From: Bacteroidaceae bacterium
GTDB taxonomy: Bacteria; Bacteroidota; Bacteroidia; Bacteroidales; Bacteroidaceae
Assembly (NCBI GenBank): GCA_017628845.1
Contig: JAGBYI010000056.1
Span: 1 to 37,484 of the forward strand
Length of the DNA stretch: 37,484 nucleotides
Reading direction: 5' to 3'
Below the pieces are notes generated by a model. The model was not told the DNA's origin, searched no databases, and saw only the letters and a list, made by a program, of their open reading frames with translations. Positions 10,321-28,053 of this stretch are shown here, in pieces (positions within the stretch are counted from its first letter, which is position 1; the number at the start of each line of letters is the position of its first letter). The position numbers and the translations under genes were made by a program.

Positions 10321-11526
10321 ATGTTCACAGCAAAATTAAAATTCAGGCAATCTGTTGTCGTTGGAAAGGAAGGAAGTTTGTACTATCAGCTGATACAGGG
10401 CGGGGTTGTCAGACAGGTGCCTACACCTTTTCGTATCTACCCCGAAGAATGGGATTTCCATGCCAACAGGATTGTAATAAATCCCTCGTCAGACAGGTCT
10501 TCGTATTTGGAGTCTGTTCTCAGGACAACATATTCGGATATCCAGAGTCTTGAGGATATAACAGAGGGTTTAACTTCTGCCAGGCAGGATATATCTTTGG
10601 ATAGCATCATCGCCGAGTTCAACAGGCAGAGGTCTGCCATTTCCTTGTTCGTCTTCATGGAGCAGGTTATTGCCCAGTATATGAGGCTGGGGAAATTCAG
10701 GACAGGCGAAACCTATTCCGCCACTCTCAGCAGCTTCGGGAAGTTTCGGGGTGGGGTAGACATAGCCCTGGAGCATATCGATTCGGATATCGTTGCAGCA
10801 TACGAAGGTTACCTCAGAACCAGCGGTCTGTCTTCAAATACCATATCCTTCTATTTGAAACACCTCAGGGCCGTTTACAACAGGGCGGTGGACAAGGGCC
10901 TTGTTGCCGACAAAAGGCCTTTCCGCCATGCCGCAACTTCCACAGAAAAGACCATCAAGCGGGCATTGTCCCTGAAGACCATTAAGCGTATCAAGGCGTT
11001 GGAACTCGGCAATCAGCCTATGAAACGTTTTGCCAGGGACATGTTCCTGTTCAGCTTCTATACCAGAGGCATGTCTTTTGTCGACATGGCTTTCCTTAAA
11101 AAGAAGGACCTCTCCGGAGAAATACTTTCCTATCGCAGGAAGAAGACAAACCAGCGCCTTATAGTCCATTGGGAAAAGTGTATGCAGGATATACTCCACT
11201 CTTATGCCGCCGGGAAATCGTCGCCATTCCTGTTTTCTCTCATCAGGGACCATTCGGGTAATCACAGAAGACAGTACCTCAATGCAATGTGCCTTGTCAA
11301 CAGGCATCTCAAGGAAATAGGCAGGGAACTTGGACTTGTCCTGCCTCTGACATTGTATTGTGCCCGTCACTCTTGGGCAAGCATAGCCAGGGACGAGGGC
11401 ATACCTCTTTCTGTTATCAGCGAGGGCTTGGGGCATGATTCGGAGAAAACAACCCAAATCTATCTTGCTTCTTTGGAAACAGAGGTGATAGATAAGGCAA
11501 ACAGGAAGATTCTGAAATTGCTGTAA
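10321..11526 (+). CDS. Tyrosine recombinase (Bacteroidales integrase/DNA invertase type)
   Basis: This is a site-specific recombinase of 401 residues. The N-terminal Arm-like domain covers about residues 1-95, a SAM-like core-binding domain about 105-195, and the catalytic domain about 215-401. Catalytic residues are R249 (YTRG), K275 (in RRKKTN), R349 (ARHSW), H372 (GLGHDS) and nucleophile Y381 (TQIYL). The usual first His of the HxxR box is replaced by Y346 (YCAR), a variation I associate with Bacteroidales recombinases. The downstream context of inverted repeats, an enclosed promoter and upxY suggests that it is the invertase of a phase-variable capsule promoter. An integrase of an element inserted by the tRNAs is the alternative, but no flanking direct repeat of the tRNA end is seen. 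Confidence 0.88.
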   Translation: MFTAKLKFRQSVVVGKEGSLYYQLIQGGVVRQVPTPFRIYPEEWDFHANRIVINPSSDRSSYLESVLRTTYSDIQSLEDITEGLTSARQDISLDSIIAEFNRQRSAISLFVFMEQVIAQYMRLGKFRTGETYSATLSSFGKFRGGVDIALEHIDSDIVAAYEGYLRTSGLSSNTISFYLKHLRAVYNRAVDKGLVADKRPFRHAATSTEKTIKRALSLKTIKRIKALELGNQPMKRFARDMFLFSFYTRGMSFVDMAFLKKKDLSGEILSYRRKKTNQRLIVHWEKCMQDILHSYAAGKSSPFLFSLIRDHSGNHRRQYLNAMCLVNRHLKEIGRELGLVLPLTLYCARHSWASIARDEGIPLSVISEGLGHDSEKTTQIYLASLETEVIDKANRKILKLL

Positions 11527-11876: not shown

Positions 11877-11914
11877 TCTTCTCGGAGAAGACGGATAAAT
11901 CTTCTCGGAGAAGA
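11877..11914 (-). repeat. Left inverted-repeat pair of the capsule promoter switch
   Basis: Two copies of TCTTCTCGGAGAAGA (11877-11891 and 11900-11914) are separated by 8 bases, a 23-bp period. Each is itself a 7-bp-arm palindrome whose central base is G on the plus strand. They are the reverse complement of the three copies at 12062-12122. Confidence 0.93.
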
Positions 11915-11927
11915 TAGTTTTTCTCCA

Positions 11928-11959
11928 CAAATATACATAAAAATTCACATATAGGCAAA
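11928..11959 (-). promoter_or_regulatory. Promoter inside the invertible segment, pointing away from upxY
   Basis: On the minus strand TTTG (11959-11956) is followed after exactly 20 bases by TATATTTG (11935-11928), an excellent Bacteroidetes promoter. It fires leftward, toward the recombinase and antisense to it. Confidence 0.8.
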
Positions 11960-12061
11960 TATTTCCGTTCAAAAGGCCATTGAAAGCCCCAATCTTTTTG
12001 GTTCATTTTCCTCTTGAAAATTATAACCTCTTGATATTCGGGGTATAAAGCGGTATATGCA

Positions 12062-12122
12062 TCTTCTCCGAGAAGATTGATATGTCTTCTCCGAGAAGAT
12101 TGATATGTCTTCTCCGAGAAGA
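12062..12122 (+). repeat. Right inverted-repeat triplet of the capsule promoter switch
   Basis: Three copies of TCTTCTCCGAGAAGA start at 12062, 12085 and 12108. The two 8-base spacers are both TTGATATG, so the period is 23 bp, the same as in the left pair. The central base is C, the opposite orientation to the left pair. Confidence 0.93.
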
Positions 12123-12164: not shown

Positions 12165-12860
12165 ATGTGCACTGAGAAAGGTAACACCTCGCAGTCACAT
12201 AAATGCCTGAAACAGAGCCTGCAAGCACAAGTTTCGGGGAGCCAAGAGAATGTGCCTGTACTCAACAGGAAGAATTTTGCGAGCGACTCAAATTCAGTTG
12301 ATAAAGAAAATGCCGAAATGCTTTGGTTTGCCATGAGTGCCACTTTTGGCAGAGAGATGAAAGCCAAGGAGTTTCTCGAGAACAACAATGTACGTTGCTT
12401 CGTTCCCCTGCGGTATCAGTTGGTGAAAGGCAGAAGCAAGGACAAGGTCCGTAAACTGGTTCCGGCCGTCAGCAACCTTGTTTTTGTAAATGCCACCAGG
12501 GATAGTATCAAGATATTAAAGACCAAACTTCCATACTTGCAATACCACACCCGCCCCGAAGGCGGCAAGAACATCCCTGTCACCGTTCCAAGCGCACAGA
12601 TGGAGCAGTTCATAGCAGCTTGCAACACCTACAACGAGAAGATGACCTTTGTTCGTCCGGACGAAATCAAACTTTCGGAGGGAACAAGGATAAGGATTGT
12701 CGGTGGAGCCTTCGATGGAATAGAGGGAACGTTCATCCGTATCGACAAAGGCAAACAGAAGCATGTTGTCATTAATGTCGACAGGATTGCCGCCATAGTA
12801 CTGGCAAAGGTAAATGATGGATACATACAGGTGTTGGACAACAATAATGTTTCTATATGA
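12165..12860 (+). CDS. UpxY-type NusG paralogue, capsule operon antiterminator
   Basis: This is a specialised NusG homologue. Known UpxY proteins act at the 5' leader of their own capsule operon to prevent early transcription termination. The NGN domain starts at MLWFAMSATFGREMKAKEFL and a C-terminal KOW motif lies in SEGTRIRIVGGAFDGIEGTF. As is usual, it is the first gene of the operon. The start is uncertain. The ATG at 12165 has GGAG nine bases upstream and is chosen here. In-frame ATGs at 12105 (within the right inverted repeats), 12141 and 12150 are possible, and the NGN core begins only at 12318. From 12165 there are about 50 low-complexity residues before the NGN domain, longer than in UpxY proteins I recall. 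The stop overlaps the next start by 4 bases. Confidence 0.87.
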   Translation: MCTEKGNTSQSHKCLKQSLQAQVSGSQENVPVLNRKNFASDSNSVDKENAEMLWFAMSATFGREMKAKEFLENNNVRCFVPLRYQLVKGRSKDKVRKLVPAVSNLVFVNATRDSIKILKTKLPYLQYHTRPEGGKNIPVTVPSAQMEQFIAACNTYNEKMTFVRPDEIKLSEGTRIRIVGGAFDGIEGTFIRIDKGKQKHVVINVDRIAAIVLAKVNDGYIQVLDNNNVSI

Positions 12861-13261
12861 ATGACGTAAAGGCCCCCGGTGTTATTCTGATGATGAATCT
12901 TGATTCGCTCCTTTCTGCGGAACAAGGCAATATCCTCAAGAGGGAAAGGGAAAATACCCATCATATACATTTGTATAATGTAGGTCAGTATTGGGCAGCA
13001 TTCGACAAGTCTGCCTTTCAGGCCGAGCATCTTACGAAACTCAAGGACGTTCCCGATGTAGTAAAGCTCAAGGACAATCCATTCCCCATTGTCATGCATA
13101 TAATCGACGAGAACCAGTTCCGTAGCCTATGCAAGTCAAATCCCTCCTTGCACCAGAAAAAGAAACACATCCAAATCGACGGCACACACGTAGACATGGC
13201 AGAATACAACACCTGGTATCTGCAGAAATCCGATGCCCTCATAGAATCAAAGAAACCATAA
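12857..13261 (+). CDS. Small protein of unknown function coupled to upxY
   Basis: The protein has 134 residues, no signal peptide and no membrane segment. The ATGA overlap with upxY implies translational coupling, and the gene occupies the place of upxZ in Bacteroides loci. However, the sequence does not look like UpxZ as I know it. The stretch HLYNVGQYWAAFDKSAFQAEHL, at about residues 37-58, faintly resembles the start of MutS domain I (Y-x-x-G-x-F/Y-x-x-x-x-x-x-D/S-A), which is only a pattern-level guess. The remainder is basic and charged. A regulatory role next to UpxY is plausible from position alone. Confidence 0.72.
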   Translation: MNDVKAPGVILMMNLDSLLSAEQGNILKRERENTHHIHLYNVGQYWAAFDKSAFQAEHLTKLKDVPDVVKLKDNPFPIVMHIIDENQFRSLCKSNPSLHQKKKHIQIDGTHVDMAEYNTWYLQKSDALIESKKP

Positions 13262-13578: not shown

Positions 13579-15486
13579 ATGAAACTCCTCTCCAAACTCA
13601 GTGACTGGTACTTCGCCCGCAAGACCCTTCCCCATTGGGGAGTTCTGGCGTTGGATTGCTTCATCGTCTTGTTTGCAAGTTTCGTAGGCAAGTATTACGA
13701 ACTGGATGATATAGGTTTCACCAACTCCTTCCGCTCCATTGTGATTGGAGCGCTCCTCACCACCCTGCTATATGCCATATCGTTCGCCCTCTTCCATACC
13801 TACAGAGGCATTATCCGCTACTCCTCTTTCATAGACCTTCAGCGCATAGCATTTGCCACCATGGTTGGAGCACTGCTCACAGCCTTGCTCTCGTTTGTGG
13901 ACGAATACATACCCCATTGCTCCGTAGCATCCCCCCATGGTGTCGTTGTCACCTTCCTCATTGCCACCATGCTCATGTGGATGGAGCGCGTCATCGTCAA
14001 GAGGATGTACGACAACTTCCATACCGACAACTCCGTTCCCGTAGCCATATACGGCACCAAGGCAGGAGGCATCTCCCTTGCCAAGAGCATCTCCTCCGTC
14101 AAGGACAAGAAGTACACCCTCTTAGCCTTTATCTCCGACGGACAGGAAATGAAGGGCATTACCCTCTTTGGCAAGAAGATATATATCAACCATCCCGGCA
14201 TCGCCACAAAGATGAAGCACCTTGGCGTCAAGACACTCCTCGTATCACCGCTAAAGACAGAGATGTTCCGTCAGAACACCGAGATGGTTGACGAGTTCCT
14301 TGCCGCAGGCATACACATCATGATGATGCCTGCCGCCGAGGAGTGGGACGGCACCTCCGAACTCACACACCGCAACCTCCGCGAAGTGGACATTGAGGAC
14401 CTCTTGCCTCGCGACAAGATAGAAGTGGACATGGATGCCATTGGACAGCTGCTTCAGGACAAGGTCATCCTCATCACCGGTGCTGCCGGTTCCATAGGTT
14501 CCGAGATGGTGCGTCAGGTTGCCCTCTACCGCCCCTCTTCCATGATACTCATCGACCAGGCAGAGACTCCCATGCACGACATCCGCCTGATGATGGCACG
14601 CCAGTTCCCCTATATACCTAGTCACACCATCGTCAGCAGCATTGCCAACAAGGACCACATGGAGCAGATCTTCTCCCAGTTCCGTCCCGACTACGTCTTC
14701 CATGCCGCCGCCTACAAGCACGTGCCCATGATGGAGGACAACCCCGGCATAGCAGTGCAGAATAATATATATGGTACGCGCGTGATAGCCGACCTTGCAG
14801 TGAAGTATGGCACCAGGAAGTTTGTCATGATCTCCACCGACAAGGCCGTCAACCCCACCAACGTCATGGGGTGCTCCAAGCGCATCTGCGAAATCTACTG
14901 CCAGTCCCTGAACAAGGCCATCCAGGAAGGCAAGGTGCAGGGCATCACCCAGTTCGTCACCACCCGCTTTGGCAATGTCCTGGGCAGCAATGGCTCTGTC
15001 ATCCCCATCTTCAAGGAACAGATACGCAAGGGCGGTCCCATCACCGTCACCCATCCCGACATCATCCGCTTCTTCATGCTCATCCCCGAGGCATGCAAGC
15101 TCGTCCTCGAAGCCGGTACCATGGGCAAGGGAGGCGAAATCTTTGTCTTCGACATGGGCGCCCCAGTCCGTATTGTCGACCTTGCCCACCGCATGATACA
15201 GCTCTCCGGGGCAGAAGGCATAGACATACAGTTCACCGGTCTCCGCGAAGGCGAAAAACTCTACGAGGAAGTCCTCAGCGACAAGGAGCAGACCAAGCCC
15301 ACCCACAACCCCAAGATAATGATAGCCACCGTCCGCGAGTACGACTACGAAGTAGCCTGCCAGAACGAAGAGCGCCTCCTCTCCGCCTCCCACTCCCACG
15401 ACGACATGGCCATAGTAAAGATAATGAAAGAAATAGTCCCCGAATACAAATCCAAATGCTCCAAGTACGAAGCCTTGGACAAGTAA
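13579..15486 (+). CDS. capD: Membrane-bound UDP-GlcNAc 4,6-dehydratase, CapD/WbpM/PglF type
   Basis: This nucleotide-sugar dehydratase makes UDP-4-keto-6-deoxy-GlcNAc, the precursor for QuiNAc, bacillosamine or AATGal sugars. The first roughly 150 residues hold about four membrane helices, followed by a Rossmann-like domain (VAIYGTKAGG) and the extended SDR domain. The NAD-binding GAAGSIG is at residues 301-307. The active site STDK is at 419-422, with M430 replacing the usual SDR tyrosine and K434 following, the S-M-K arrangement of this family. The length of 635 is typical for the long form. Codons end mainly in C or G, in contrast to the AT-rich genes downstream, which suggests that this gene is native and the following block acquired. 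The exact end product depends on the later aminotransferase. Confidence 0.92.
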   Translation: MKLLSKLSDWYFARKTLPHWGVLALDCFIVLFASFVGKYYELDDIGFTNSFRSIVIGALLTTLLYAISFALFHTYRGIIRYSSFIDLQRIAFATMVGALLTALLSFVDEYIPHCSVASPHGVVVTFLIATMLMWMERVIVKRMYDNFHTDNSVPVAIYGTKAGGISLAKSISSVKDKKYTLLAFISDGQEMKGITLFGKKIYINHPGIATKMKHLGVKTLLVSPLKTEMFRQNTEMVDEFLAAGIHIMMMPAAEEWDGTSELTHRNLREVDIEDLLPRDKIEVDMDAIGQLLQDKVILITGAAGSIGSEMVRQVALYRPSSMILIDQAETPMHDIRLMMARQFPYIPSHTIVSSIANKDHMEQIFSQFRPDYVFHAAAYKHVPMMEDNPGIAVQNNIYGTRVIADLAVKYGTRKFVMISTDKAVNPTNVMGCSKRICEIYCQSLNKAIQEGKVQGITQFVTTRFGNVLGSNGSVIPIFKEQIRKGGPITVTHPDIIRFFMLIPEACKLVLEAGTMGKGGEIFVFDMGAPVRIVDLAHRMIQLSGAEGIDIQFTGLREGEKLYEEVLSDKEQTKPTHNPKIMIATVREYDYEVACQNEERLLSASHSHDDMAIVKIMKEIVPEYKSKCSKYEALDK

Positions 15487-15510
15487 TGTGAACCTATCCC
15501 CTCAAACTGT

Positions 15511-15639
15511 CCCCCTGAGACAGGTGGGCGAAGAGGGTCTTTAGATGAAGCACTAAATGTGCTTCAGTGCCCTATGAGGGTAGCAGTTTCCAGTGCGACG
15601 TGCGGACACCCCCAAAGGGGGGGGGAGGGGGTGGATAAC
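15511..15639 (+). repeat. GC-rich core element, long form
   Basis: It has the same ends as the short copies (CCCCCTGAGACAGGTGGG at the left, CCCCCAAAGGGGG and GGATAA at the right) but about 75 extra bases in the middle. The extra part includes the inverted repeat GAAGCAC-TAAAT-GTGCTTC. The short copies look like internal deletions of this form, or this is the short form with an insertion. Confidence 0.82.
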
Positions 15640-15702
15640 AACTCACAACTCACAACTCATTGCTCACTACTCACTACTCATAACTCACTACTCACTACTC
15701 AC
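15640..15702 (+). repeat. Tandem heptamers (about nine units)
   Basis: Nine consecutive 7-mers of the form (A/T)(A/G)CTCA(C/T) run up to the wzx start, for example AACTCAC, TACTCAC, TACTCAT. This is a cleaner array than those at 4546-4791 and 13262-13578. Confidence 0.88.
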
Positions 15703-15710
15703 ATCTATCC

Positions 15711-17255
15711 ATGTCTGCTCAATTAGCAAATAATAAACGCATAGCGAAGAATACAATAGCATTGTATTTCAGAACATTTATAACTATGATTGTTAGCCTA
15801 TACACCAGTCGAGTGATGCTTCAGGCGTTGGGAGTTGACAACTATGGTATCAATAATGTCATCGGAGGGATCGTTGCAATGAGTTCCTTGATAACAGGAG
15901 CTGTTACACAATCTATTACAAGATTCATCACATACGCTTTGGGAGAAGGCGACAAGCAACGAATGAAGGTTGTATTCTCTACTAGCGTAAATGTTATGAT
16001 TGCACTATCTATCATTGCTGTTTTGGCGTTAGAGATTGCTGGAGTATGGTTCCTTACTTATAAAGCCGATATCCCAGATGGACGTATGATTGCTGCTCAT
16101 TGGGTGTTGCAATGCTCAATCGTTACGTTAGTTCTCAATCTGATTAGTCAACCTTACAATGCAACAATTATTGCTCATGAGCACATGTCTATTTATGCCT
16201 ATATGAGCATAGTCGATGTTACTCTAAAACTGGCAGTCTGTTTTGTAATAAAGGCTTTTGATGGTGATCGATTGATACTGTTCGCTATACTTAATACTGC
16301 AATTGCTTTATGTATGCGTTTATTCTATTCCTGGTATTGTGCAAAACATTTTGATGAGTCAAGGTACAACTACAGATTATTTGATAAATCCTTCTTCAAT
16401 GAAATGTCACAATTTACAGGCTGGTATCTTGTTGGCAATGGCGTTTGGGTGTTCAATACTCAAGGTCTTAATATGCTTATCAACGTGTTCTTTGGTGTTG
16501 CATTAAATGCTGCTCGAGGTGTTGCTATTTCGGTAACGAATTCTATCACATCATTTGTGAGTAATTTTACAGTGGCTTTTATTCCACAGATTACCAAAAG
16601 TTATGCTTCAAAAGATATGGATCGTGTCCTTTTCCTTGTGTTTCAAGGTACAAAGTTTACATGGTTCCTTATTTTCTTATTTATAGTACCTGTATTTTGG
16701 GAAGCTGATACTCTTCTAAAGCTTTGGCTTGAAGAACCTCCTGCTTTTGCGAGTCTATTCCTGCGTTTTGCACTTTTCGAAAGTTGGTCAATCATTATTA
16801 GTTTTGCTCTACACAATGTAATCTTAGCATCTGGTCAATTGAAAAGGGTACAGTTAAGGATTGCACTATACACAGCATTCATTTTCCCATTAACCTGGTT
16901 ATGCTATAGCTTGGGCGCTCCAGTATGGATTTCATACGTAATATTCATATTACTGAACACTACGGCAAAAGGCTTCACACTTGTAGAGTTAAAACGCATA
17001 ATTGACTTTCCAGTATTAAGGTTTATGAAGGAGTGTGTTTTACGGTGTACAATTATTACAATCATTGCCTTTGTAGTTCCTGGCATTTTTGTATATATTA
17101 TGCCGCAATCAACGTTGCGATTCTTTATAGTTGTTCCAATTGCAATAATCTGGACGTTGTTATGTGAGTTCACACTAGGACTCAGTAAAAGCGAAAGAGC
17201 CTTGGTGCTGTCAACAGGCAAGAAAATGGTAAATAAGTTTTTTAGTAAAAACTAA
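15711..17255 (+). CDS. wzx: Wzx-type polysaccharide flippase (MOP superfamily)
   Basis: This is an integral inner-membrane protein expected to flip the lipid-linked repeat unit to the periplasmic face. Its 514 residues contain about 12-14 hydrophobic helices. The N-terminus (RIAKNTIALYFRTFITMIVSLYTSRVMLQALG) is characteristic of Bacteroidales capsule flippases, as is DNYGINNVIGG that follows. The gene is clearly AT-richer than capD and starts directly after a repeat array, so it marks the beginning of the variable part of the cluster. The next gene follows after 9 bases. Confidence 0.92.
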   Translation: MSAQLANNKRIAKNTIALYFRTFITMIVSLYTSRVMLQALGVDNYGINNVIGGIVAMSSLITGAVTQSITRFITYALGEGDKQRMKVVFSTSVNVMIALSIIAVLALEIAGVWFLTYKADIPDGRMIAAHWVLQCSIVTLVLNLISQPYNATIIAHEHMSIYAYMSIVDVTLKLAVCFVIKAFDGDRLILFAILNTAIALCMRLFYSWYCAKHFDESRYNYRLFDKSFFNEMSQFTGWYLVGNGVWVFNTQGLNMLINVFFGVALNAARGVAISVTNSITSFVSNFTVAFIPQITKSYASKDMDRVLFLVFQGTKFTWFLIFLFIVPVFWEADTLLKLWLEEPPAFASLFLRFALFESWSIIISFALHNVILASGQLKRVQLRIALYTAFIFPLTWLCYSLGAPVWISYVIFILLNTTAKGFTLVELKRIIDFPVLRFMKECVLRCTIITIIAFVVPGIFVYIMPQSTLRFFIVVPIAIIWTLLCEFTLGLSKSERALVLSTGKKMVNKFFSKN

Positions 17256-17264
17256 TTCAATAAT

Positions 17265-18605
17265 ATGAAAAAGATAGAAATAGTAAAGACCTACGTAGAA
17301 GGTAATACAATACGCTACCAAGTCCGAGAAGAAAAAGGTCTCGGGTTATTGCAACAAGAGGTTGTAGATTTATTTATTAGATATCATGGCGAGGATTATT
17401 ATGATTTAAGTAAATGTCCTCAGTCAATTTTACAACTGCCTATCTCTCTCTATTTACTTCCAGTTACCTACTTCTATAAAGTTGAGCTGATTATCCCTGA
17501 GATGGATAAAACTTTATTTGACCAGCTCCCTGTCATTTATGATGCTTATTCAAAAATCTATGGACCATTCAATGCGGAATGGAGGGGTAAGGTAACAATA
17601 GGTAAAATTGTCAAGAACACACCAGTATTAGACGCCAAATATGATAAGGTAGTATTCTTCTCAGGAGGTGTGGATGCTTGCCATGCAGGAATCAATAATT
17701 CAGGAAAAAGATCCTTATTGGTAAACATTCCAGATATTGAAACACAAGCAAAGAACGAAGGTCCTCTTCGTGAGGAGAAATTCTCTTTGATCAAAAGTTT
17801 TTCGAAGATTGTAGATAGCGATTGGCTGCTTATCTCAAATAATTTCAATGCTCAATCAACTAAGTATCATGAAGTCGATACTTATCTTCGTAAATCTCTT
17901 GGGCTGAATAGTCCAGCTTTTAATTTTGATGGTTGGGGTGGTATAAGATATATAGCTAATATGTGTAGTGTCGCCCCTATTGCTTATTTATCAGGAATTA
18001 AGGAATTGGTAATGGGTTCGTCTTTTGAGCAACTTGAGGATCAACTCTTTCTTAATTTAGATGGTGCGCATCCTGACATTACAGACTCTATCGGGTTTGC
18101 AGATATTCGTTTTACTGAGCAGGAAGGACTCTTGGTGCGACGTTCAAAAAAGGTGAGCAATGTTATTGATTGGTGCAAGAAGCATAATGTAAAAACCAAA
18201 TTGTGGGCATGCTTTCGAGATGGATATACCCAATGCGGTTATTGTGGCAAGTGTGTGCGTACTCAGTTAAACATTCTATGTGCTGGAGAAAACCCAATAG
18301 ATTGGGGATTTGAAGGTTTTTCGGAGACAAAACTTGCAAAGCACATCAGTAAGTACAAATATGTTGAGAGTAATCCGTGTTGGCTATGGGATAACATAGA
18401 AACGATTGATGGCAATAAAACATATCCTTACTGTAACGAGTTGCTGCATTGGTTAAAAGACATAGGATACAAAGAATATTCTGCAGTAGCCAAAAAGAAA
18501 GCAGCGGAACGAGCGAAATACTCCAAGCTCAGATTGGCTCTTTCAGTCCACCGCTATCCCCACTATTTATACGTAATTATCTCAAGACTCATAGGAAGAA
18601 AATAA
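17265..18605 (+). CDS. PP-loop ATPase-like protein with QueC-like zinc motif, in capsule cluster
   Basis: I do not recognise a named family. A PP-loop signature FFSGGVDA (S133-G134-G135-V136-D137) indicates an adenylating ATP-pyrophosphatase fold, as in QueC, ExsB-type and asparagine synthetase-related enzymes. Near the C-terminus four cysteines, C316-x7-C324-x2-C327-x2-C330 (QCGYCGKCVR), copy the zinc-site layout of QueC. The first roughly 110 residues are a separate N-terminal region with no match that I can name. At 446 residues it is twice the size of QueC. No other queuosine gene is nearby. The place between wzx and the SDR/ThDP genes implies activation of a carboxylate or similar group for a polysaccharide building block. 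That is inference. The SDR starts 4 bases later. Confidence 0.75.
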   Translation: MKKIEIVKTYVEGNTIRYQVREEKGLGLLQQEVVDLFIRYHGEDYYDLSKCPQSILQLPISLYLLPVTYFYKVELIIPEMDKTLFDQLPVIYDAYSKIYGPFNAEWRGKVTIGKIVKNTPVLDAKYDKVVFFSGGVDACHAGINNSGKRSLLVNIPDIETQAKNEGPLREEKFSLIKSFSKIVDSDWLLISNNFNAQSTKYHEVDTYLRKSLGLNSPAFNFDGWGGIRYIANMCSVAPIAYLSGIKELVMGSSFEQLEDQLFLNLDGAHPDITDSIGFADIRFTEQEGLLVRRSKKVSNVIDWCKKHNVKTKLWACFRDGYTQCGYCGKCVRTQLNILCAGENPIDWGFEGFSETKLAKHISKYKYVESNPCWLWDNIETIDGNKTYPYCNELLHWLKDIGYKEYSAVAKKKAAERAKYSKLRLALSVHRYPHYLYVIISRLIGRK

Positions 18606-18609
18606 AGAT

Positions 18610-19467
18610 ATGTCAATTGTAAAGAAAATAAAGGGTGTTGCAAAGATTATATTAAATAATCTTCAGCCTAAAACCGTCATTCAGGCTAACGTTGCTAAAC
18701 TTGCCCCCAATGAAATGCTGAATGGGAGATGTGCCTTGATTACTGGTGGTACTAGTGGCATTGGATATGCTATTGCAGAGGCATTTATGGAAGCTGGAGC
18801 AAAAGTTATAATTACCGGTCGTTCCGAAAGCAAACTGAGTGCGGTTGTTGATAAACTTTCTAAACTTGGTGTTTGTTGTGGCATAGTAATGGATATGACA
18901 AAGGTCGAGACGTTACAAAGTTGCTTTGATGAAGCTGTGTCAAAATTTGGATCTATTGACATCCTTGTCAACAATGCAGGTGTCTCTGGATCTTCAATTG
19001 CAGATGCCACACCAGAGAAGTTTGATGATGTTATCAATACAAATCTGCGGGGTGTGTTTTTCTTGTCTCAGGTTGCAGGAAAGTATATGGTACAAAATGC
19101 TATTCATGGTAATATTCTAAACATATCGTCAGCATCAAGTATTCGTCCTGCAGCTTGTGCTTATACCATTTCTAAATGGGGCATCCGTGGCTTTACTCAA
19201 GGCCTTGCACGTACATTGCTTCCTTATGGTATTACAGTAAACGCTCTGGCTCCTGGACCTACTGCAACTCCTTTGTTGCGAAAGCCTGATACAAATGACA
19301 TTTCATTGCCAGCAACCCCTTCAGGCAGATATGCTTTGCCTTGCGAGATAGCCAGTATGGCGGTTATTCTTGTAAGTGATATGGCGCGCCTTGTCGTAGG
19401 AGACACACTCTTTATGACAGGAGGTGCAGGAAATGTTAATAATGGTGATATAGATTATCCTTTCTGA
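18610..19467 (+). CDS. Short-chain dehydrogenase/reductase
   Basis: This is a classical SDR oxidoreductase of 285 residues. The cofactor motif TGGTSGIG lies near residues 45-52, NNAG follows, and the catalytic Ser and Y-x3-K (SSASS ... YTISK) are intact. The basic residues in ITGRSESK after the second strand hint at NADP(H). An N-terminal extension of about 35 residues precedes the Rossmann fold. It is tightly packed between the PP-loop gene and the first ThDP gene (1 base between coding regions), so it probably reduces or oxidises a product of that pathway. The substrate is unknown. Confidence 0.88.
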   Translation: MSIVKKIKGVAKIILNNLQPKTVIQANVAKLAPNEMLNGRCALITGGTSGIGYAIAEAFMEAGAKVIITGRSESKLSAVVDKLSKLGVCCGIVMDMTKVETLQSCFDEAVSKFGSIDILVNNAGVSGSSIADATPEKFDDVINTNLRGVFFLSQVAGKYMVQNAIHGNILNISSASSIRPAACAYTISKWGIRGFTQGLARTLLPYGITVNALAPGPTATPLLRKPDTNDISLPATPSGRYALPCEIASMAVILVSDMARLVVGDTLFMTGGAGNVNNGDIDYPF

Positions 19468-19468
19468 T

Positions 19469-20383
19469 ATGAATAAATCAATAGATATATTACTCAAGTC
19501 TCTTGAGAATCAACAAATCATAAAGCATATTGTATGCCCTTCCGCTAGGTTGTTGCTCTCTAAATCAGAGATGAGTCTGCCTAACCCTATAGATATTATA
19601 GACGAGCGATCGGCAGGTTATGTTGCTACCGGCTTATGTGCAGAATCAGAGCAACCCGTAGTTATCTGGTGTGCAGATAATGATTCCTATCGTAATCTTA
19701 CATCAGCTTTAACAGAGGCCTACTATCGTAAATTGCCAATTCTGGTTGTTGCACTTTCTTGTGATAACGTGATTAACCAAACAATGAATCCTAATGATAC
19801 GATTAGGTATTATGTCAACAATACACTCTACAATCGTGCAGGTACAGAACAAGATATACACAAGGCGATTGACTATTTGTTCGCTGAAGTGAAAGGCCCA
19901 GTATATCTTTCATTAGGTTCCTATCAGGAACCTGTAGTACAAGCAGAGAATGCTGTTTCTGATCAGATAGACGTAACGGCTATCACTAAAATCATACCAT
20001 CTTCTGCATGTGTTCACATAGGAAAGGATTTTGTTTGTGAGTGTAGCCATCTTTGTGAGGTTGTATTAAGAAATGATCATTGTACAAAGGATGGCAACCT
20101 CTCTATGTTGATTGGTTCCTCCATCGTTGATCGCAACAAGCTTCATGTTGGCATTTTCTCTGCAGAAGAACTTGCATACGACCTTAATATGTTTGGCATC
20201 AGGCATGTTAACGGTAATATAGTTATCTTTTCAGTTATTATCGATGAACAAAATCCTACAATTCTTGATGTAGCAAAAAGGTTCGGGTGGGACTGCTGTC
20301 ATATTAACATTACAGAGAGGGACTGCGTAATAGAAAAGCTTGTAATTAGTGATAAACCTCTATATATAGAAATTGTATTATGA
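19469..20383 (+). CDS. Short ThDP-family protein: PYR domain plus degenerate PP-like domain
   Basis: The first 165 residues form a ThDP-enzyme pyrimidine-binding domain, with the catalytic-type glutamate E46 in DERSAGYVATGL and the strand-helix pattern SALTEAYYRKLPILVVAL. The remaining 140 residues follow the secondary-structure rhythm of a pyrophosphate-binding domain (ELAYDLNMFG, DVAKRFGWDCCHI, PLYIEIVL). They lack the GDG...NN diphosphate/magnesium motif, and the central domain is missing. At 304 residues it is about half a normal MenD or acetolactate synthase. Alone it is unlikely to be active. The ATGA overlap with the full-length ThDP gene suggests a heteromeric partner or regulatory subunit. 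This is a reading of motifs by eye. Confidence 0.72.
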   Translation: MNKSIDILLKSLENQQIIKHIVCPSARLLLSKSEMSLPNPIDIIDERSAGYVATGLCAESEQPVVIWCADNDSYRNLTSALTEAYYRKLPILVVALSCDNVINQTMNPNDTIRYYVNNTLYNRAGTEQDIHKAIDYLFAEVKGPVYLSLGSYQEPVVQAENAVSDQIDVTAITKIIPSSACVHIGKDFVCECSHLCEVVLRNDHCTKDGNLSMLIGSSIVDRNKLHVGIFSAEELAYDLNMFGIRHVNGNIVIFSVIIDEQNPTILDVAKRFGWDCCHINITERDCVIEKLVISDKPLYIEIVL

Positions 20384-22152
20384 ATCAGTTAGAAAAGCAA
20401 TATGATGACCTTCGATATAAAACAGGTTGTTACTACACAAACGAGCGCAATAAACAGATTATCATATTCCTTTTGAAGAAATATGGCATCAAAAGAGTCG
20501 TTGTTTCTCCAGGTGCAACAAATTTTGCGCTTGTTGGCAGTATGCAGCACGATTCATTTTTTGAAATGTATTCTTGTGTTGATGAGCGTGCTGCTGCCTA
20601 TATGGCAATCGGTATTGCCGAAAAGAGTAACGAACCTGTAGTTCTCTCATGTACTGGTGCAACAGCCTCTCGCAACTATATGGCGGCATTGACCTATGCC
20701 TACAAACGCAATGTTCCTATTCTGGTTATTACTTCAAGTCTCTCATTGGCTTCCGTAGGACATTTGCAGGCACAAGTAACAGATCGAGCACATTCTCCAA
20801 TAGATATGATTTACAAGTCATATCAGTTTGATAACATTAAAGATGGTGAAGACGAATGGTCTCAGACAGTGCGTTGCAACGAGGCTCTTTCAACATTATT
20901 GGACGTTAGAAAGCCCGTTCTCATTAATGTTTGTACCACATATAGTCTTGATTTTTCAGTCAAGGAATTACCACCAGCAAGGTATATACCTACAGTTTCA
21001 TCAGCAGAGAATCGTCCTAAACTTCCTATTGGTAATATTTGCATATTTATAGGTTCGCATTCCAAACTTACAGACCTGCAGATTCAAGCAATCGATACGT
21101 TTTGTAAAAATCATAATGCTATAGTCTTATGTGATCATACAAGCGGCTATAATGGCAAGTATAAAGTGAATATGAGTATTGTGCTCAGCCAAGAGAAGTA
21201 TTTATCAAAACACAGGAAGGTAAACCTTCTAATTCACTTAGGCGAAATATCTGGTGATTATTATACATTTCTCGGTATTAGTCCAAAAGAGGTTTGGCGT
21301 GTTAATCCCGATGGTGCTTATGTGGATTTCTTCCGCAAATTAAAAAATGTGTTTAAAATGAAAGAATCCAAATTCTTCAGTATGTATGCGGATGACAATA
21401 TAAATACATCTCAAACATTTCTTGCAAATTGCAGAAAAGAGTCTGAAGGCTTCTTCAACACATTGCCTGAGGTTCCTTTTAGCAATATTTGGATTGCCAA
21501 GGAATTATCATCAAAACTACCCCAAAACTCTCAGATTCATTTTGGCATTCTAAACAGTCTTCGTTCATGGGATTTCTTCAACCTGCCAGATGGAGTTGAA
21601 TCGGCATGTAATGTGGGTGGATTTGGTATCGATGGATGTGTATCTTCTCTCATAGGAGCCGCACTTTCCAATCCAGATAAGTTATTTTTTGGGGTTGTAG
21701 GAGACCTTGCTTTTTATTATGATTCAAATATAATTCTGAACAAGAATCTACCCCAAAACATAAGATTGATAGTTGTAAACAATGGCCGAGGCATCGAATT
21801 CCGAAATTATTGCCATCCCGCTTCGCGAGCGCTTGCTGATGGGGCAGATACTTACGTGGCAGCAGCAGGTCATTTTGGTGATCAGGTTAATAGCGCTATT
21901 GTAGATTTGTGTAAATCAGCAAACATCAAGTATTACCGCGTAGCAAATAAGGATTGTTTTCTTGAGGTCGAAAATGATTTTTTAAAGAATAATTTGGATA
22001 GTGCCATAATAATAGAGGCTGAAACAACCCCACAAAATGAGAACTTGGCTTTAATGATATATCGTCAATTTGCCAAGAATTTTGACAGCAAGATTCTTCA
22101 TTTTGGGGTAAAATATCCGTTTTTATTAAAACTTATTAGAAAGATAAAATGA
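20380..22152 (+). CDS. Full-length ThDP-dependent enzyme, MenD/acetolactate-synthase-like
   Basis: This is a 590-residue ThDP enzyme with three domains. The PYR domain carries glutamate E69 in VDERAAAYMAIG. The central domain lies around residues 190-330. The PP domain has the ThDP/Mg motif G441-D442-L ... ending in VVNNG about 27 residues later. The beginning (IIFLLKKYGIKRVVVSPGATNFALV) resembles MenD, but no menaquinone gene is nearby. ThDP enzymes in sugar pathways are known to add two-carbon units to keto sugars (YerE in yersiniose synthesis) or to decarboxylate keto acids. Which applies here is unknown. It overlaps both neighbours by 4 bases. Confidence 0.85.
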   Translation: MNQLEKQYDDLRYKTGCYYTNERNKQIIIFLLKKYGIKRVVVSPGATNFALVGSMQHDSFFEMYSCVDERAAAYMAIGIAEKSNEPVVLSCTGATASRNYMAALTYAYKRNVPILVITSSLSLASVGHLQAQVTDRAHSPIDMIYKSYQFDNIKDGEDEWSQTVRCNEALSTLLDVRKPVLINVCTTYSLDFSVKELPPARYIPTVSSAENRPKLPIGNICIFIGSHSKLTDLQIQAIDTFCKNHNAIVLCDHTSGYNGKYKVNMSIVLSQEKYLSKHRKVNLLIHLGEISGDYYTFLGISPKEVWRVNPDGAYVDFFRKLKNVFKMKESKFFSMYADDNINTSQTFLANCRKESEGFFNTLPEVPFSNIWIAKELSSKLPQNSQIHFGILNSLRSWDFFNLPDGVESACNVGGFGIDGCVSSLIGAALSNPDKLFFGVVGDLAFYYDSNIILNKNLPQNIRLIVVNNGRGIEFRNYCHPASRALADGADTYVAAAGHFGDQVNSAIVDLCKSANIKYYRVANKDCFLEVENDFLKNNLDSAIIIEAETTPQNENLALMIYRQFAKNFDSKILHFGVKYPFLLKLIRKIK

Positions 22153-23240
22153 AAATAGGTATAATTACATTTCATTTCCCGGTTAATTATGGCGCAATGA
22201 TACAAGCCTATGCTATGCAAGAGCATTTGCGTATGATGGGACATGAGGTCTTCATAATAGATTATGCACCAGAGTATCATATGAAGACTTATACGGGCAA
22301 GCGTTCGTGGAGATGGTGTTTAAGAGGCGGTTTTAGAAGTGAAATTCCAGACAGAATCCTTTCAAAGTTCTTTGATGGGCTACGTCAGAAAAGAAATGCA
22401 AACTTCTTTAGTTTCATGAAGAGTAAATTCCGCCTGTATCCATACAAGCCTGAGGATGACATGTCTTTCTTTGATTGCATTCTTCTTGGTAGCGACCAGA
22501 TTTGGAACCAGCGCATAACCAACAACTGTTTTGATGGACCATATTATGGTGATGGATTCAAGTGTAGAGTCTTTTCGTATGCAGCAAGTAATAGATCCAA
22601 GGAGTTGAACGAGGAAGAAAAGGCTCAGTATAGAGTCAAGCTTAATCAACTGCAGTCTATTGGCGTTCGCGAACTACAACTTCAGAAATTGCTCCAGCCT
22701 CTCACAGACAAACCTGTGTATATGAATGTTGATCCGACTATGCTTGCCCATCCATCTGTTTACGATAATTTGGATTTGAGCAGACCGATGATGGATAAGT
22801 ATGTAGTTATATACGAGTTGACAAATCATAAGAAAGTACAAAAGATGGCTGACCGATATGCTAAAAAAAATGGCGCAAAGGTCGTTATCTTGGTAAATGA
22901 CACCAGTCTTCTATATGGCAAGAAATATGACCAAGAGGCTAATCCCGAGAAGTTCCTGGCTTACATCAAGAATGCAGAATGTGTTTTTACAACTTCTTTC
23001 CATGGCACAGCATTATCTATGGTATTCAAGAAGGATTTCTATTCCGTGCGTCAAGGAAACTCAGCCGACATTCGCTTGGAGTCCATCCTAACGCAAGTTG
23101 GTCAGTTAGATCGATTTATAAGTATGGATGCAGTGCCTGAAATCGCCCCTGTTGATTATTCAAAGATTGATGATAGGTTGGCGGAAATGAGAGCTGCATC
23201 ACAGGATTATTTGGAAAAGTCCATAGCAGGAACTATCTAA
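22149..23240 (+). CDS. Polysaccharide pyruvyl transferase family protein
   Basis: This is a CsaB/WcaK-type enzyme of 363 residues that usually transfers pyruvate from PEP to make a ketal on a sugar. Family landmarks are GIITFHFPVNYGAMIQAYA at the N-terminus, LLGSDQIWN near residue 116, VDPTML, and the C-terminal TSFHGTALSMVF. It starts within the stop codon of the ThDP gene (ATGA), so translation is coupled. Some members of this fold transfer other groups, so a product of the preceding genes could be its substrate instead of pyruvate; that is speculation. Confidence 0.9.
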   Translation: MKIGIITFHFPVNYGAMIQAYAMQEHLRMMGHEVFIIDYAPEYHMKTYTGKRSWRWCLRGGFRSEIPDRILSKFFDGLRQKRNANFFSFMKSKFRLYPYKPEDDMSFFDCILLGSDQIWNQRITNNCFDGPYYGDGFKCRVFSYAASNRSKELNEEEKAQYRVKLNQLQSIGVRELQLQKLLQPLTDKPVYMNVDPTMLAHPSVYDNLDLSRPMMDKYVVIYELTNHKKVQKMADRYAKKNGAKVVILVNDTSLLYGKKYDQEANPEKFLAYIKNAECVFTTSFHGTALSMVFKKDFYSVRQGNSADIRLESILTQVGQLDRFISMDAVPEIAPVDYSKIDDRLAEMRAASQDYLEKSIAGTI

Positions 23241-23256
23241 AAATGAATAGTAGATT

Positions 23257-24228
23257 ATGAATACTATACCAAAAGTTTCAATCATAATTCCTGTCTATAA
23301 GGCAGAACCATATATAGAAGATTGTGTCCAGACAATTTTAAGGCAGACATTCACCGACTTTGAAGTCCTGCTTATAGACGACGGCAGTCCCGACCGAAGT
23401 GGAGAAATATGTGACCGAATTGCCTCCCAAGATTTACGCGTTAAGGTGTTCCACAAACCCAATGGAGGTGCTACATCTGCACGCAAATTTGGAGTCGAGC
23501 ATGCTATAGGCGAATGGATTCTCTTCTCTGATGCAGATGATGAAATGCCAGCTGATGCCATTAGCAATCTCATGAAGTATGATGATGGCAAAAACGAGTT
23601 TATTGCAGGTACGATTCTATATCAGTCAATAGACCGTTTAATCAAAACAAAAACAGACAAAGCCTCTCTTTCTCCCAAAGAATATATTTGCCAGTTGCTT
23701 GATAGAACTACATACTACGGTCCATGTTCAAAACTCATCAAGCGCCAATTATTTGACGGGCTTGAGTGGTTGGATGACAAGGATGTCTTCCAGAATGAAG
23801 ATCTCCTAATGCTTATTCTGATCACTTCCCGCATAAACTCAAATGTCGCTATTTGTAACGAAGGAATTCATTATGTATGTATCAGTCGAGAAGGGAGTGC
23901 GTCATCTCGAACTATGGGGTACATCGGCTGTAGTAAGTTAATGACTGCAATACAGGAAAGCTTGTTTAAGGCTGGAATTTGGGACAAGACTATTATGGAG
24001 TCTTATGTTAATTACTGTATTTGGACATTGAATTTATTATGCATAAGTTCAGGTATCATTCTTCGCAAAGATTCCTTCTTATCAGAATTAAACAATATGA
24101 TATCTTTAGTATCAATTCATAGTGAGAATATCCGACATGCTAAGCATGTTACATCAAGAACATCAATGTATATGGCTATTTATGTCAGACGTATAAAGAA
24201 TCAAGTAAAGAAAATATTACAAAAATAA
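23257..24228 (+). CDS. Glycosyltransferase family 2
   Basis: This is a cytosolic, membrane-associated GT-A glycosyltransferase of 323 residues. The N-terminal VSIIIPVYKAEPYIEDCV is followed by LLIDDGSPDRSGEI, the GGATSAR loop and the DxD metal site in FSDADDEMP (about residues 89-96). The C-terminus is helical with a hydrophobic stretch and a basic tail. The sugar added is not predictable from sequence alone. It follows the pyruvyltransferase after 16 bases and the next glycosyltransferase begins 4 bases after it. Confidence 0.92.
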   Translation: MNTIPKVSIIIPVYKAEPYIEDCVQTILRQTFTDFEVLLIDDGSPDRSGEICDRIASQDLRVKVFHKPNGGATSARKFGVEHAIGEWILFSDADDEMPADAISNLMKYDDGKNEFIAGTILYQSIDRLIKTKTDKASLSPKEYICQLLDRTTYYGPCSKLIKRQLFDGLEWLDDKDVFQNEDLLMLILITSRINSNVAICNEGIHYVCISREGSASSRTMGYIGCSKLMTAIQESLFKAGIWDKTIMESYVNYCIWTLNLLCISSGIILRKDSFLSELNNMISLVSIHSENIRHAKHVTSRTSMYMAIYVRRIKNQVKKILQK

Positions 24229-24232
24229 CTAT

Positions 24233-25492
24233 ATGAAAGTACTTTGGGTTAGCCTTGTGCCATTCCCTCCACTTTGTGAGCACCTTGGACAGGCTGCTCC
24301 ATCATATTGTGGTTGGATGTATTCGTCAGCAAAAGCTCTATTAGATAATATGCTTGATCTCCAGATGGGTGTAATTGTATATTCGCATGGTAAACAATAT
24401 ACTATGCACGAGGTCGGTGGCATTAGATATTACATGGTTCCATGCAAGCACATGGAAAAGACTACACGGATTCAAATTGTTGCCTGCCGTGAGGCAATTG
24501 CCGACTTTGCTCCAAATTTGATTCATATTCATGGCACAGAACATTCGTTGGCGCAAGCTGTTTGTATGGCTAATAATGGTAAAGTTCGTACGCTTGTAAA
24601 TATCCAGGGGCTTGCTAGTGGAATTGCACCATTTGCCGATGGGGGAATTTCCTTTTGGGACAAGTTGACAAACATCACACCTTTGGATTTTTATCGCAAA
24701 ACATTCCTTTTAAACGCAAAACCGAGTATGTATAAGCGTGCCAGGTGTGAGGAGTATGTGATAAAAAAAGCAACAGATATTATAGGCCGCACGCAATGGG
24801 ATCATGATCATGTCACTACAATTAACCCAAAGTTGCAATATCATCACATGGAGGAGACTTTGAGGACTTCATTCTACGAATCTCCTGTATGGGACTACTC
24901 CAAGTGCAATAAGCATACCATCTTCTTAAGTAATAGCGCATTTCCTTTAAAGGGAGCTCATATATTTGTGAAAGCATTAATGATTATTGCTGAACGTTAT
25001 CCTGATGTTAAAGTAAATGTATGTGGCAGTAGCGTACTGAACAATGATTTCAAAACTATACTGCATTTTCAAGGATACCATTTATACCTTAGGCGTTTGG
25101 TAAAGAAACATAAACTAGAGAAGCATCTCAATTTTATGGGTTCATTGACAGAATCTCAGATGAAACAGGCTTATCTTGATGCCAATGTTTATGTTTTATG
25201 TTCTGCCATCGAGAATTCATCCAATAGCCTCTGCGAAGCCCAGATTCTCGGTGTGCCCGTTGTTGCATCCTATTGTGGTGGAACACCATCGCTTGTCGAG
25301 GATGGGCATACAGGATATCTGTATCGGTATGAAGAGTATAAAATGTTAGCACAGCTTGTGATGCGATTGTTTGAACTAAAAGATTTTTCAACTTTGTCTT
25401 CTGCTGAGCGTAGTGTGGCAATTACACGTCACGATAGAAATACTAATGCATTGCGATTGGTTGAGATATATAACACAATCTGCAATATGTAA
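24233..25492 (+). CDS. Glycosyltransferase family 4
   Basis: This is a GT-B retaining glycosyltransferase of 419 residues. The N-terminal domain contains LIHIHGTEHSLA, typical of the GT4 donor/acceptor cleft. The C-terminal Rossmann domain holds the family E-x7-E motif in IENSSNSLCEAQILGVPVVA and the GGTPSLVEDGHTGYL segment. Length and layout are normal. Donor and linkage are unknown. Confidence 0.9.
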   Translation: MKVLWVSLVPFPPLCEHLGQAAPSYCGWMYSSAKALLDNMLDLQMGVIVYSHGKQYTMHEVGGIRYYMVPCKHMEKTTRIQIVACREAIADFAPNLIHIHGTEHSLAQAVCMANNGKVRTLVNIQGLASGIAPFADGGISFWDKLTNITPLDFYRKTFLLNAKPSMYKRARCEEYVIKKATDIIGRTQWDHDHVTTINPKLQYHHMEETLRTSFYESPVWDYSKCNKHTIFLSNSAFPLKGAHIFVKALMIIAERYPDVKVNVCGSSVLNNDFKTILHFQGYHLYLRRLVKKHKLEKHLNFMGSLTESQMKQAYLDANVYVLCSAIENSSNSLCEAQILGVPVVASYCGGTPSLVEDGHTGYLYRYEEYKMLAQLVMRLFELKDFSTLSSAERSVAITRHDRNTNALRLVEIYNTICNM

Positions 25493-25507
25493 ATACAAAA
25501 TACTAGA

Positions 25508-26641
25508 ATGATTAGGTCTCTGAAAAAGAATATAACATTAGATTTTGTAATGTGTTTACTGCTTATTGTTGCAAGCGGTAATCCAATTTTTATTTATTCC
25601 ACATATGTGCGTGAATTGTATATCATACTAGTTATATTGTCTTTTTTATATTCAAACAAAAGGAATATCTATATAGCTAAAGATTACATTTCATATATAT
25701 CTGTTTTTATTATTGTATTTTTATTACAGTTACTATCTGTTGATGATATTGCCGTTAATAGTCAAATTTTCCAGTTACTGCGAATGTTTGTTGGTCTAGC
25801 AATAATAAAATCATTAGGAGCAAAGTTTCAATACATATACGTTAAGGTTATTACAATAGTTGCTGTTATATCTTTGTTTTTATTTACATATACAAATTTG
25901 GTCGGATATATACCAGCCTTTATATCTTTTAAATCATCACACAGTCTTATCATTTATACAGAAATATATGAAGATTATTGGGGTGTAATTCCAAGAAATG
26001 CGGGTATGTTTTGGGAACCAGGTGCATTTCAAGGCTATCTCAATCTTGCAATTTTGTTTGCATTAATGATGCCAAAGAGTACTACGCGTAAATATTCGTT
26101 AATCTTTTTGATTGTTGCTCTATTAACAACAGTTAGTACCACAGGTTATGTAGTTTTTGGATTTGTAATCATCTATTATATCTATAAGTATAGTAAATTT
26201 AATAAATCTATTAGATTTTTGCTAACATTGATTGTATGCATTGCTGCTGTATGTGCGTTTTTTGAATTGAGTTTTTTGCATGATAAAATCATTGATAATC
26301 TCTCCGATGTAGATAGTTCTCAAGGTAGAATAACAGACTTTATTAGATATAGGACATATATAAAGGAAAACTGGATATGTGGAATGAACGTAGGACGTAT
26401 TCCGGAATTCATAACTGGTAACGGACTTGTCTATATGACCTTGAGCTTTGGATTTCCAGCTATGATATATTATCTCTTGTACACATTATTGAAGTTGAAG
26501 AAAAACAACAATTTTTCGTTGTCGATGTATATGTTTGTATTTATCCTTCTGACTATACAGGGGGAAACTTTTAATTTTTATCCTCTATATTTAGGTTTGC
26601 CATTTTTAAAATTACAATTTACAGAGGAACTATCTTTTTAA
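25508..26641 (+). CDS. wzy: Wzy-like O-antigen/capsule polymerase
   Basis: This is a very hydrophobic, AT-rich protein of 377 residues with about 10-11 predicted membrane helices. The largest extramembrane loop is near residues 155-175 (EDYWGVIPRNAGMFWEPGAFQGY), matching the loop position and the R/WEPGAFQ pattern of Wzy/O-antigen-ligase-like proteins. It would polymerise repeat units on the outer face of the inner membrane. The call rests on topology, the loop motif and the presence of a Wzx in the same operon; Wzy proteins are poorly conserved. Confidence 0.85.
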   Translation: MIRSLKKNITLDFVMCLLLIVASGNPIFIYSTYVRELYIILVILSFLYSNKRNIYIAKDYISYISVFIIVFLLQLLSVDDIAVNSQIFQLLRMFVGLAIIKSLGAKFQYIYVKVITIVAVISLFLFTYTNLVGYIPAFISFKSSHSLIIYTEIYEDYWGVIPRNAGMFWEPGAFQGYLNLAILFALMMPKSTTRKYSLIFLIVALLTTVSTTGYVVFGFVIIYYIYKYSKFNKSIRFLLTLIVCIAAVCAFFELSFLHDKIIDNLSDVDSSQGRITDFIRYRTYIKENWICGMNVGRIPEFITGNGLVYMTLSFGFPAMIYYLLYTLLKLKKNNNFSLSMYMFVFILLTIQGETFNFYPLYLGLPFLKLQFTEELSF

Positions 26642-26668
26642 AATATTTGAATTTGTTTTCAATTTGAT

Positions 26669-27433: not shown

Positions 27434-27459
27434 TGTTGACTATTTTTCCAAATAATATT

Positions 27460-27879
27460 ATGCCAAAACTAGCAATTGATCTCCTCGTTTTTGAAAGAGG
27501 AAAAACATATGGATTTGAAGAGTATATCCTAAATCTTCTTAGCGACGAAGATGCAGACAAGGAGGAAAAGCACACGACAGGAGTTGACGAGTTTCGCAAG
27601 GGAATCAAGTACAATACGATGGCCGCGGACGAGGTACACGTTCACGAGTCCGACGAGACACGGATACCTGAAGGATGCACTTTCCTGTTCAAGCGCGTCA
27701 GGCGCTCTTTCGAACAAGTCCAGAAGATAATCCAGCACGACTACCAGATTGTGGTTTACCTTGACAGGGATGGCCGGATGCACGAGGCATATCTGCCAGC
27801 AGAGGGCCATCCGGAATTTATTGATAAGTTCCCAGGTACCCACGCATCGGCAAGCTACCAGGCACATCTCGGCTTCTAA
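27460..27879 (+). pseudogene. Chimeric frame: start of a glycosyltransferase joined to an unrelated tail
   Basis: From the ATG at 27460 about 27 residues (PKLAIDLLVFERGKTYGFEEY and ILNLL) look like the beginning of a GT4-type glycosyltransferase. At about position 27540 the sequence changes abruptly. The rest of the frame (roughly 110 residues, rich in charged residues, ending TSYQ-like AHLGF) is clearly richer in G+C than the neighbours and matches nothing I recognise. The product has 139 residues. The simplest reading is a deletion or recombination scar that fused two gene fragments in frame, so a functional protein is doubtful. An intact small gene with an upstream ATG at 27433 is the alternative. 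Confidence 0.55.
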
Positions 27880-27950
27880 AAATACATCATGTGCACACCA
27901 TTCTTCAGAGAGATGAACCGGGATTAATTGAATTCATATTCTTTAAAGGT

Positions 27951-27983: not shown

Positions 27984-28053
27984 AAATTAAAGGTGATATG
28001 CGAAAATTGGACGTTTACGCAGTAAGGCGTAAGTATAAATTCTATAAATAATC

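Follow-up and report, generated by a model that had tools for sequence, protein, structure and literature searches.

A probable phase-variable capsule promoter with stacked recombinase-type sites in a Bacteroidaceae genome

Results and Discussion

A stretch of 37,484 nucleotides from a Bacteroidaceae bacterium (contig JAGBYI010000056.1 of assembly GCA_017628845.1; hereafter the window) very probably carries a capsule promoter subject to phase variation through the tyrosine recombinase whose gene directly precedes it, as judged from its sites, promoter and gene order. The assignment of this capsule switch to the OFF orientation in the assembly, already proposed in a preliminary description of the sequence, is well supported: the one consensus promoter between the sites points away from upxY, and the recombinase, the sites and the capsule operon are in place. 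Both the palindromic site and the type of switch are known; what is unusual is the number of sites, two on the left and three on the right. The window is one whole contig of a 2.67-Mb genome with an estimated completeness of 84.6%, and it was compared with a genus sample of 139 genomes and an order sample of 393 Bacteroidales genomes.

The features of the window are as follows.

10321..11526, plus strand: local tyrosine site-specific recombinase, 401 aa (Pfam PF13102, 2.8e-19; PF00589, 3.1e-8)
11877..11891, plus strand: site L1, outer left, TCTTCT-CGG-AGAAGA, an extra copy outside L2
11900..11914, plus strand: site L2, promoter-proximal left, 13 nt from the -7 box, which equals the distance of the recombinase family
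11915..12061, no strand: inner segment L2-R1, 147 bp, predicted to invert
11928..11959, minus strand: Bacteroidota-type promoter TTTG-20-TATATTTG, facing away from upxY (OFF)
12062..12076, minus strand: site R1, inner right, the TCTTCTCSGAGAAGA unit inverted
12085..12099, minus strand: site R2, middle right
12108..12122, minus strand: site R3, outer right, matching the relatives' single right site in position
12200..12250, plus strand: conserved leader RNA hairpin, predicted stem 12206-12213 / 12231-12238, 17-nt loop, tail GGAGCCAAGAGAA
12252..12860, plus strand: upxY, UpxY-family antiterminator (NF033644), probable start GTG 12252 or ATG 12318 rather than 12105
12857..13261, plus strand: small second ORF, 134 aa, UpxZ-like by position only
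13579..36859, plus strand: polysaccharide operon (nucleotide-sugar enzymes, MatE-type flippase, glycosyltransferases, a Wzy_C-like protein below cut-off, pyruvyl transferase, initiating sugar transferase)

Organization of the promoter region

The five exact copies of TCTTCTCSGAGAAGA found in the window, two to the left and three to the right of the inner segment, are the only exact copies in the whole 2.67-Mb genome. Both left copies have CGG at their centre and all three right copies CCG; the start-to-start spacing is 23 bp in either array, the right one amounting to 2.7 copies of a 23-bp unit with a 100% match. The two left and three inverse right palindromes on a 23-bp period had thus been described exactly, orientation included. 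With up to 3 mismatches allowed, TCTTCTCSGAGAAGA has 6 matches in the window (the five sites and one at 5168) against 0.73 expected, a number reached by none of 100 shuffled windows. The linker between L1 and L2 is CGGATAAA, while both right linkers are CATATCAA, so that the site copies are distinguishable.

Scanning of both strands between 11500 and 12330 revealed a single TAnnTTTG, the box of the minus-strand promoter; no plus-strand TAnnTTTG was found in this interval. Three earlier statements are hereby upheld: that the promoter, TTTG-20-TATATTTG, lies at 11959-11928 on the minus strand, that no promoter motif faces upxY, and that inversion of the inner segment would bring the promoter to 12017-12048, the place obtained by reflecting the segment about the inner pair L2-R1.

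The tyrosine recombinase gene reported upstream was recognized by both of its Pfam domains. Residues R249, K275, R349, H372 and Y381, which we take to be the catalytic ones, are invariant in an alignment of 8 sequences. The marks by which a capsule switch with a local recombinase was defined are present in the window, namely an adjacent recombinase gene with an open reading frame and its presumed catalytic residues kept, family-type inverted sites around a segment of about 150-200 bp, a single consensus promoter set at a constant distance from one of the sites, and upxY at the head of a polysaccharide operon. A single-pair switch has exactly one site per side; the window has 2 + 3. The distance from the recombinase gene to the left array, 350 nt, counts against the switch reading: among the seven closest UpxY loci it is 52-253 nt in six and 781 nt in the remaining one (L042). 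Directly past the recombinase gene there is also a degenerate 22-bp tandem repeat (CCGTCCCGAGGACCGAGCCTTG, 11545-11658), which has 13 matches across 9 contigs of the same genome when up to three mismatches are allowed and is apparently a dispersed minisatellite unrelated to the switch.

upxY and the polysaccharide operon

The gene previously placed just downstream of the switch is indeed upxY, since its product passes the NCBIfam NF033644 cut-off (143 bits against 100). The start of its open reading frame at 12105, however, falls inside the right site array and is probably wrong, because the alignment with the seven closest UpxY relatives begins only near 12252/12318 and because the conserved RNA hairpin occupies 12200-12250; the true start is probably GTG at 12252 or ATG at 12318. 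Among first downstream ORFs of the recombinase loci described below, NF033644 matches 19 of the 39 scanned, that of the window included (48 were found, nine of them belonging to L106-element loci and set aside; an ORF of 110 aa was absent from 12 of 60 loci).

Long ORFs tile the plus strand from upxY to 36859, and the polysaccharide operon of about 24.6 kb agrees with the 25-kb operon described behind upxY. The 134-aa second ORF shares 33% identity with an ORF of one other locus (L120) and has no match in Pfam, NCBIfam or PHROGs. Degenerate repeats based on 7 bp (CGTTAAAC/ATCGTTA; ACAACTC) occupy intergenic positions within the capsule operon at 13259-13577 and 15638-15703. As to other upxY loci, the upxY-like gene is immediately preceded by a tRNA-Pro(CGG) gene in 20 of the 25 loci scanned in the genus (L014-L038), that is, in L014-L017, L020, L022-L025, L027-L031 and L033-L038, and in 17 of these 20 a tRNA-Phe gene stands beyond the tRNA-Pro gene on the other strand.

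Sites of the recombinase family

The relatives of the recombinase comprised the best 80 of 156 loci from GTDB contigs, a further 30 loci from among the 47 of 139 genus genomes matching at E <= 1e-30, and locus L149 of the window's own genome; removal of window copies and of duplicates of the 80 left 109 downstream regions, which were searched for inverted 15-bp quasi-palindromes 110-450 bp apart with at most 1 mismatch between the two 15-mers. Such a pair was found in 61 of the 109 loci, or 60 once L065 is dropped, where the pair is GC-rich and unlike the family and the family-type sites lie 653 bp apart, beyond the distance rule. The other 48 loci, which count against the proposed switch, gave no pair under the census rule, several of them being regions ended early by contig ends. 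The family site consists of 6-bp arms, mostly TCTCTT and in the loci nearest to the window TCTTCT, around a 3-bp centre. Across 48 non-redundant loci (L145, for its length, and the window being left out) the information content is 1.16-1.75 bits per position in the arms, as compared with 0.10-0.32 in the centre.

Given the pairs in 60 of 109 loci, the conserved arms and the variable centre, the 15-bp palindrome is an ordinary site of this tyrosine recombinase family, and its palindromic nature was rejected as a novelty. Of the multi-copy, internally palindromic design that had been called unusual, the copy number remains so and the palindrome is the family norm. The idea that identity of the centres proves them to be the overlap region is weak: the centres are equal in 48 of 48 loci, yet only 10 of these had any mismatch at all, and the agreement could be due to chance since the census allowed at most 1 mismatch between the 15-mers. 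Two site types stand side by side in L061 and L090, perhaps as two adjacent switches rather than stacked copies. A second recombinase and upxY pair is present in the window's own genome (L149, contig C174, 1425-3333), where no family-type site pair was found under the census rule.

In 45 of 50 non-redundant switches (window included, nine L106-element copies and L093 removed; L059 and the window scored with the promoter-adjacent copy in place of the census pair) TAnnTTTG ends 12-17 nt inside exactly one site, as compared with 1% of mononucleotide-shuffled segments; the 13 nt between the window's box and L2 is the distance usual in the family. The box points away from the next gene in 31 switches, the window's among them, and toward it in 14; it is lacking in 5 and present at both ends in 0. 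The resulting OFF:ON ratio of 31:14 across non-redundant family assemblies may reflect a bias either of the family or of sampling. A 15-bp site of the 6+3+6 form, together with TAnnTTTG 12-17 nt inside one copy, thus offers a rule for finding such switches in Bacteroidales, and the same rule allows an ON or OFF call from an assembly alone.

That members of the family invert in nature is indicated by the segment of L106, which was found exactly inverted in nine other loci (L107, L108, L109, L111, L114-L118). Taken by itself, this is one invertible element in ten loci of several genera (L106-L109, L111, L114-L118), ON in one and OFF in nine. L106-L118 appear to be IP-ARG elements, presumably resembling the resistance-linked IP-ARG-1.

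Extra site copies

Tandem sites of the TCTTCT type were found in the window alone among the 393 Bacteroidales and 139 genus genomes, and tandem TCTCTT-type sites in 1 of the 393 order genomes; since these patterns required exact arms (the genus search allowing R at one arm base), degenerate tandem copies escape them. Against the five sites of the window, most relatives found have two. One extra copy each, partly degenerate and at spacings of 19-77 bp, occurs in L059, L077, L130, L132 and L134 and, by pattern search, in L150; in L059, L077, L130 and L132 one copy retains the usual 13-17 nt to the promoter box.

Measured back from the codon for the conserved Trp of UpxY, the ends of R1, R2 and R3 lie at 247, 224 and 201 nt, respectively; in the seven closest UpxY relatives the right site ends at 177-232 nt (198-203 nt in five). 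By this distance R3 looks orthologous to the relatives' right site, and the TTTACA on its outer flank is likewise shared with L043 and L052. Since L2 and R3 occupy the single-site positions of the relatives, L1, R1 and R2 read as additions, and they are best read as later tandem copies that arose via slippage or unequal crossing-over. No paper on stacked sites at one promoter was found in the CC-licensed PMC literature searched; the stacked sites would allow the effects of copy number and of several states in a promoter switch to be tested.

As for the effect of these copies, we lean slightly towards neutral tandem expansion, by which replication slippage duplicated a working site with no consequence other than a larger number of targets. 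The right units, identical over 23 bp, are probably recent, the spacing of extra copies varies in other loci, and L2 and R3 retain the usual geometry. The same 23-bp period on both sides with differing linkers, however, demands two events or an exchange between sides, and the identity of all five 15-mers is not readily accommodated either.

It is unlikely that the array serves as a ladder of states, in which six inversions yield ON forms differing by steps of about 23 nt that tune leader structure and hence expression instead of plain ON/OFF. By enumeration, the six inversions from the present state put 4, 3, 2, 3, 2 or 1 sites on the upxY side, and the differing linkers make the copies distinguishable; a three-site leader start is predicted to fold into a single long hairpin (63 nt, -28.5 kcal/mol, z -5.5), a single site a 6-bp one. 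On the other hand, extra copies elsewhere are rare, one per locus, partly degenerate and of 19-77-bp period, which looks like sporadic duplication rather than a retained design, and the conserved leader hairpin folds alike behind zero, one or three site copies.

A conserved hairpin in the upxY leader

An element of 50-51 nt between the right site and upxY is common to the window and its seven relatives and also precedes the upxY of L012. In it, UAA is followed by a stem of 8 bp with a loop of 16-17 nt, and then by a tail near GGGAGCCAA. In the alignment, 95.8% of the 72 pair cells are standard pairs and both sides have changed in 5 of the 8 stem pairs; neither the paired percentage nor the covariation score was reached by any of 500 shuffles, while the number of further pair types, a less clear-cut measure, was equally high in 24 of 500. 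When the partner is shifted by one column, pairing falls to 56-58%. The case for a covarying conserved RNA hairpin before upxY is therefore strong but not final, as the alignment has few sequences and itself served to choose the structure.

A covariance model of the hairpin gave 11 matches at E up to 1 in 93 loci, nine of which are the model's own rows; of the others, L013 (the same place as in genome G006) is new and L136 is weak (E 0.29). In the genus, with 42 first-look candidates scored per genome, the model matched 7 of 139 genomes, including four of its own rows (G000, G106, G126, G121). The G006 hairpin lies after an upxY-like gene and before the next ORF, sugar-dehydrogenase-like by eye, while no convincing UpxY-like sequence was found in the 3 kb examined around the matches in G056 and G025. 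One independent hit in the genus thus speaks for the link between hairpin and upxY and two do not. A search against Rfam returned 12 hits, all below gathering scores and none overlapping the hairpin at 12200-12250; those over the site array fit its inverted repeats.

A leader hairpin general to UpxY is unsupported: none was seen by eye in the 130 nt upstream of 30 of the order-wide NF033644 matches listed, loci which belong mostly to another UpxY clade. Before the upxY genes of L054 (4127), L082 (7599), L099 (7641) and L136 (3100) lies a hairpin of a second type (UAACUGC, stem, GCAGGA or GCGGGA), and the leaders of L076, L085, L093, L107 and L101 appear different by eye. This suggests that UpxY clades have different leader elements.

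In the 5' leader that precedes upxY, UpxY proteins keep transcription from ending prematurely (PMC7819879), which makes the hairpin a natural candidate for the UpxY target and a concrete one for how the UpxY clade of the window picks its own operon. No paper on a UpxY leader hairpin was found in the CC-licensed PMC literature searched. A bolder proposal is a multi-level switch, in which the choice among six site pairs would set the number of palindromic hairpins ahead of a leader hairpin that is itself the UpxY recognition element; we consider this combination distinctly improbable. According to PMC12691694, LoaP is the sole bacterial NusG-like protein for which specific association with an RNA element is known; if true, the proposal would place UpxY beside it as a second class of hairpin-guided NusG paralogues.

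Proposed inversion and remaining alternatives

That the segment inverts in this organism, which enzyme acts on it and what the extra copies do, we infer from the arrangement of the DNA. The recombinase would pair one left site with one right site and exchange strands at the variable 3-bp centre, whereupon the segment would flip; six left-right pairs are possible, so that the leader of an ON form could contain 1-4 copies of the site, and via L2-R1 the promoter would arrive at 12017-12048. From there it would fire across the remaining sites and the leader hairpin into upxY, whose product would keep the polymerase running along the roughly 24.6 kb of the operon. The acting enzyme may be another than the local one, since the locus described in PMC13114119 inverts despite its own broken recombinase gene.

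The palindromes have 7-bp arms and fold as RNA hairpins, and might accordingly be thought of as operators of another DNA-binding regulator or as transcript hairpins rather than recombination sites. This is highly improbable, as the same type of unit forms inverted-repeat pairs in 60 of 109 recombinase loci, with the arms kept and the centre variable. Control of the segment by a distant Mpi-like serine invertase is scarcely credible, even though one global invertase handles 7 of 8 B. fragilis capsule promoters (PMC12632263), for no ARACGTTCGT-type repeat flanks the segment, the four one-mismatch matches elsewhere in the window lie within chance (2.41 expected, and 4 reached in 22 shuffles), and the sites match the family of the local tyrosine recombinase.

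Comparison with known systems

The order of elements in the window was earlier said to match known Bacteroides capsule switches, and recombinase, inverted sites with promoter, UpxY and polysaccharide operon are all there. In shufflons, the presence of more than two sites gives rise to several arrangements; unlike shufflon sites, those of the window flank one promoter and move no coding segments. The PS locus of Phocaeicola vulgatus has an invertible promoter, an upstream site-specific recombinase and upxY, and the window shares with such Bacteroidales capsule loci the order recombinase, inverted repeats with promoter, upxY and polysaccharide operon (PMC13114119). The window differs in having five stacked sites instead of one pair, and its conserved leader hairpin is set against a description of PS-type loci which, in the excerpt cited, does not mention one (PMC13114119).

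The IP-ARG promoters on integrative conjugative elements of Bacteroidales likewise have a local invertase gene and inverted repeats, and upxY is often the first gene there; these are single regions or two adjacent complete invertible regions (class IP-ARG-2), whereas the window has stacked sites around one promoter, and their cargo is resistance genes, that of the window a capsule (PMC8748976). The Mpi-type CPS promoters of B. fragilis and B. intestinalis are invertible as well, those of B. intestinalis measuring 183-186 bp and the Mpi-type transcription start lying near the proximal repeat; they have GTTCGTTTAA / ARACGTTCGTN repeats and a serine invertase, while the window has TCTTCT sites and no ARACGTTCGTN-type repeats flanking its promoter (PMC8375218). 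The hairpin of the LoaP/dfn system is of the UNCG type, whereas that of the window, a putative UpxY target, has an 8-bp stem, a 16-17-nt loop lacking UNCG closure and a tail near GGGAGCCAA; what the two have in common is a NusG paralogue together with a small hairpin in the operon leader (PMC12691694).
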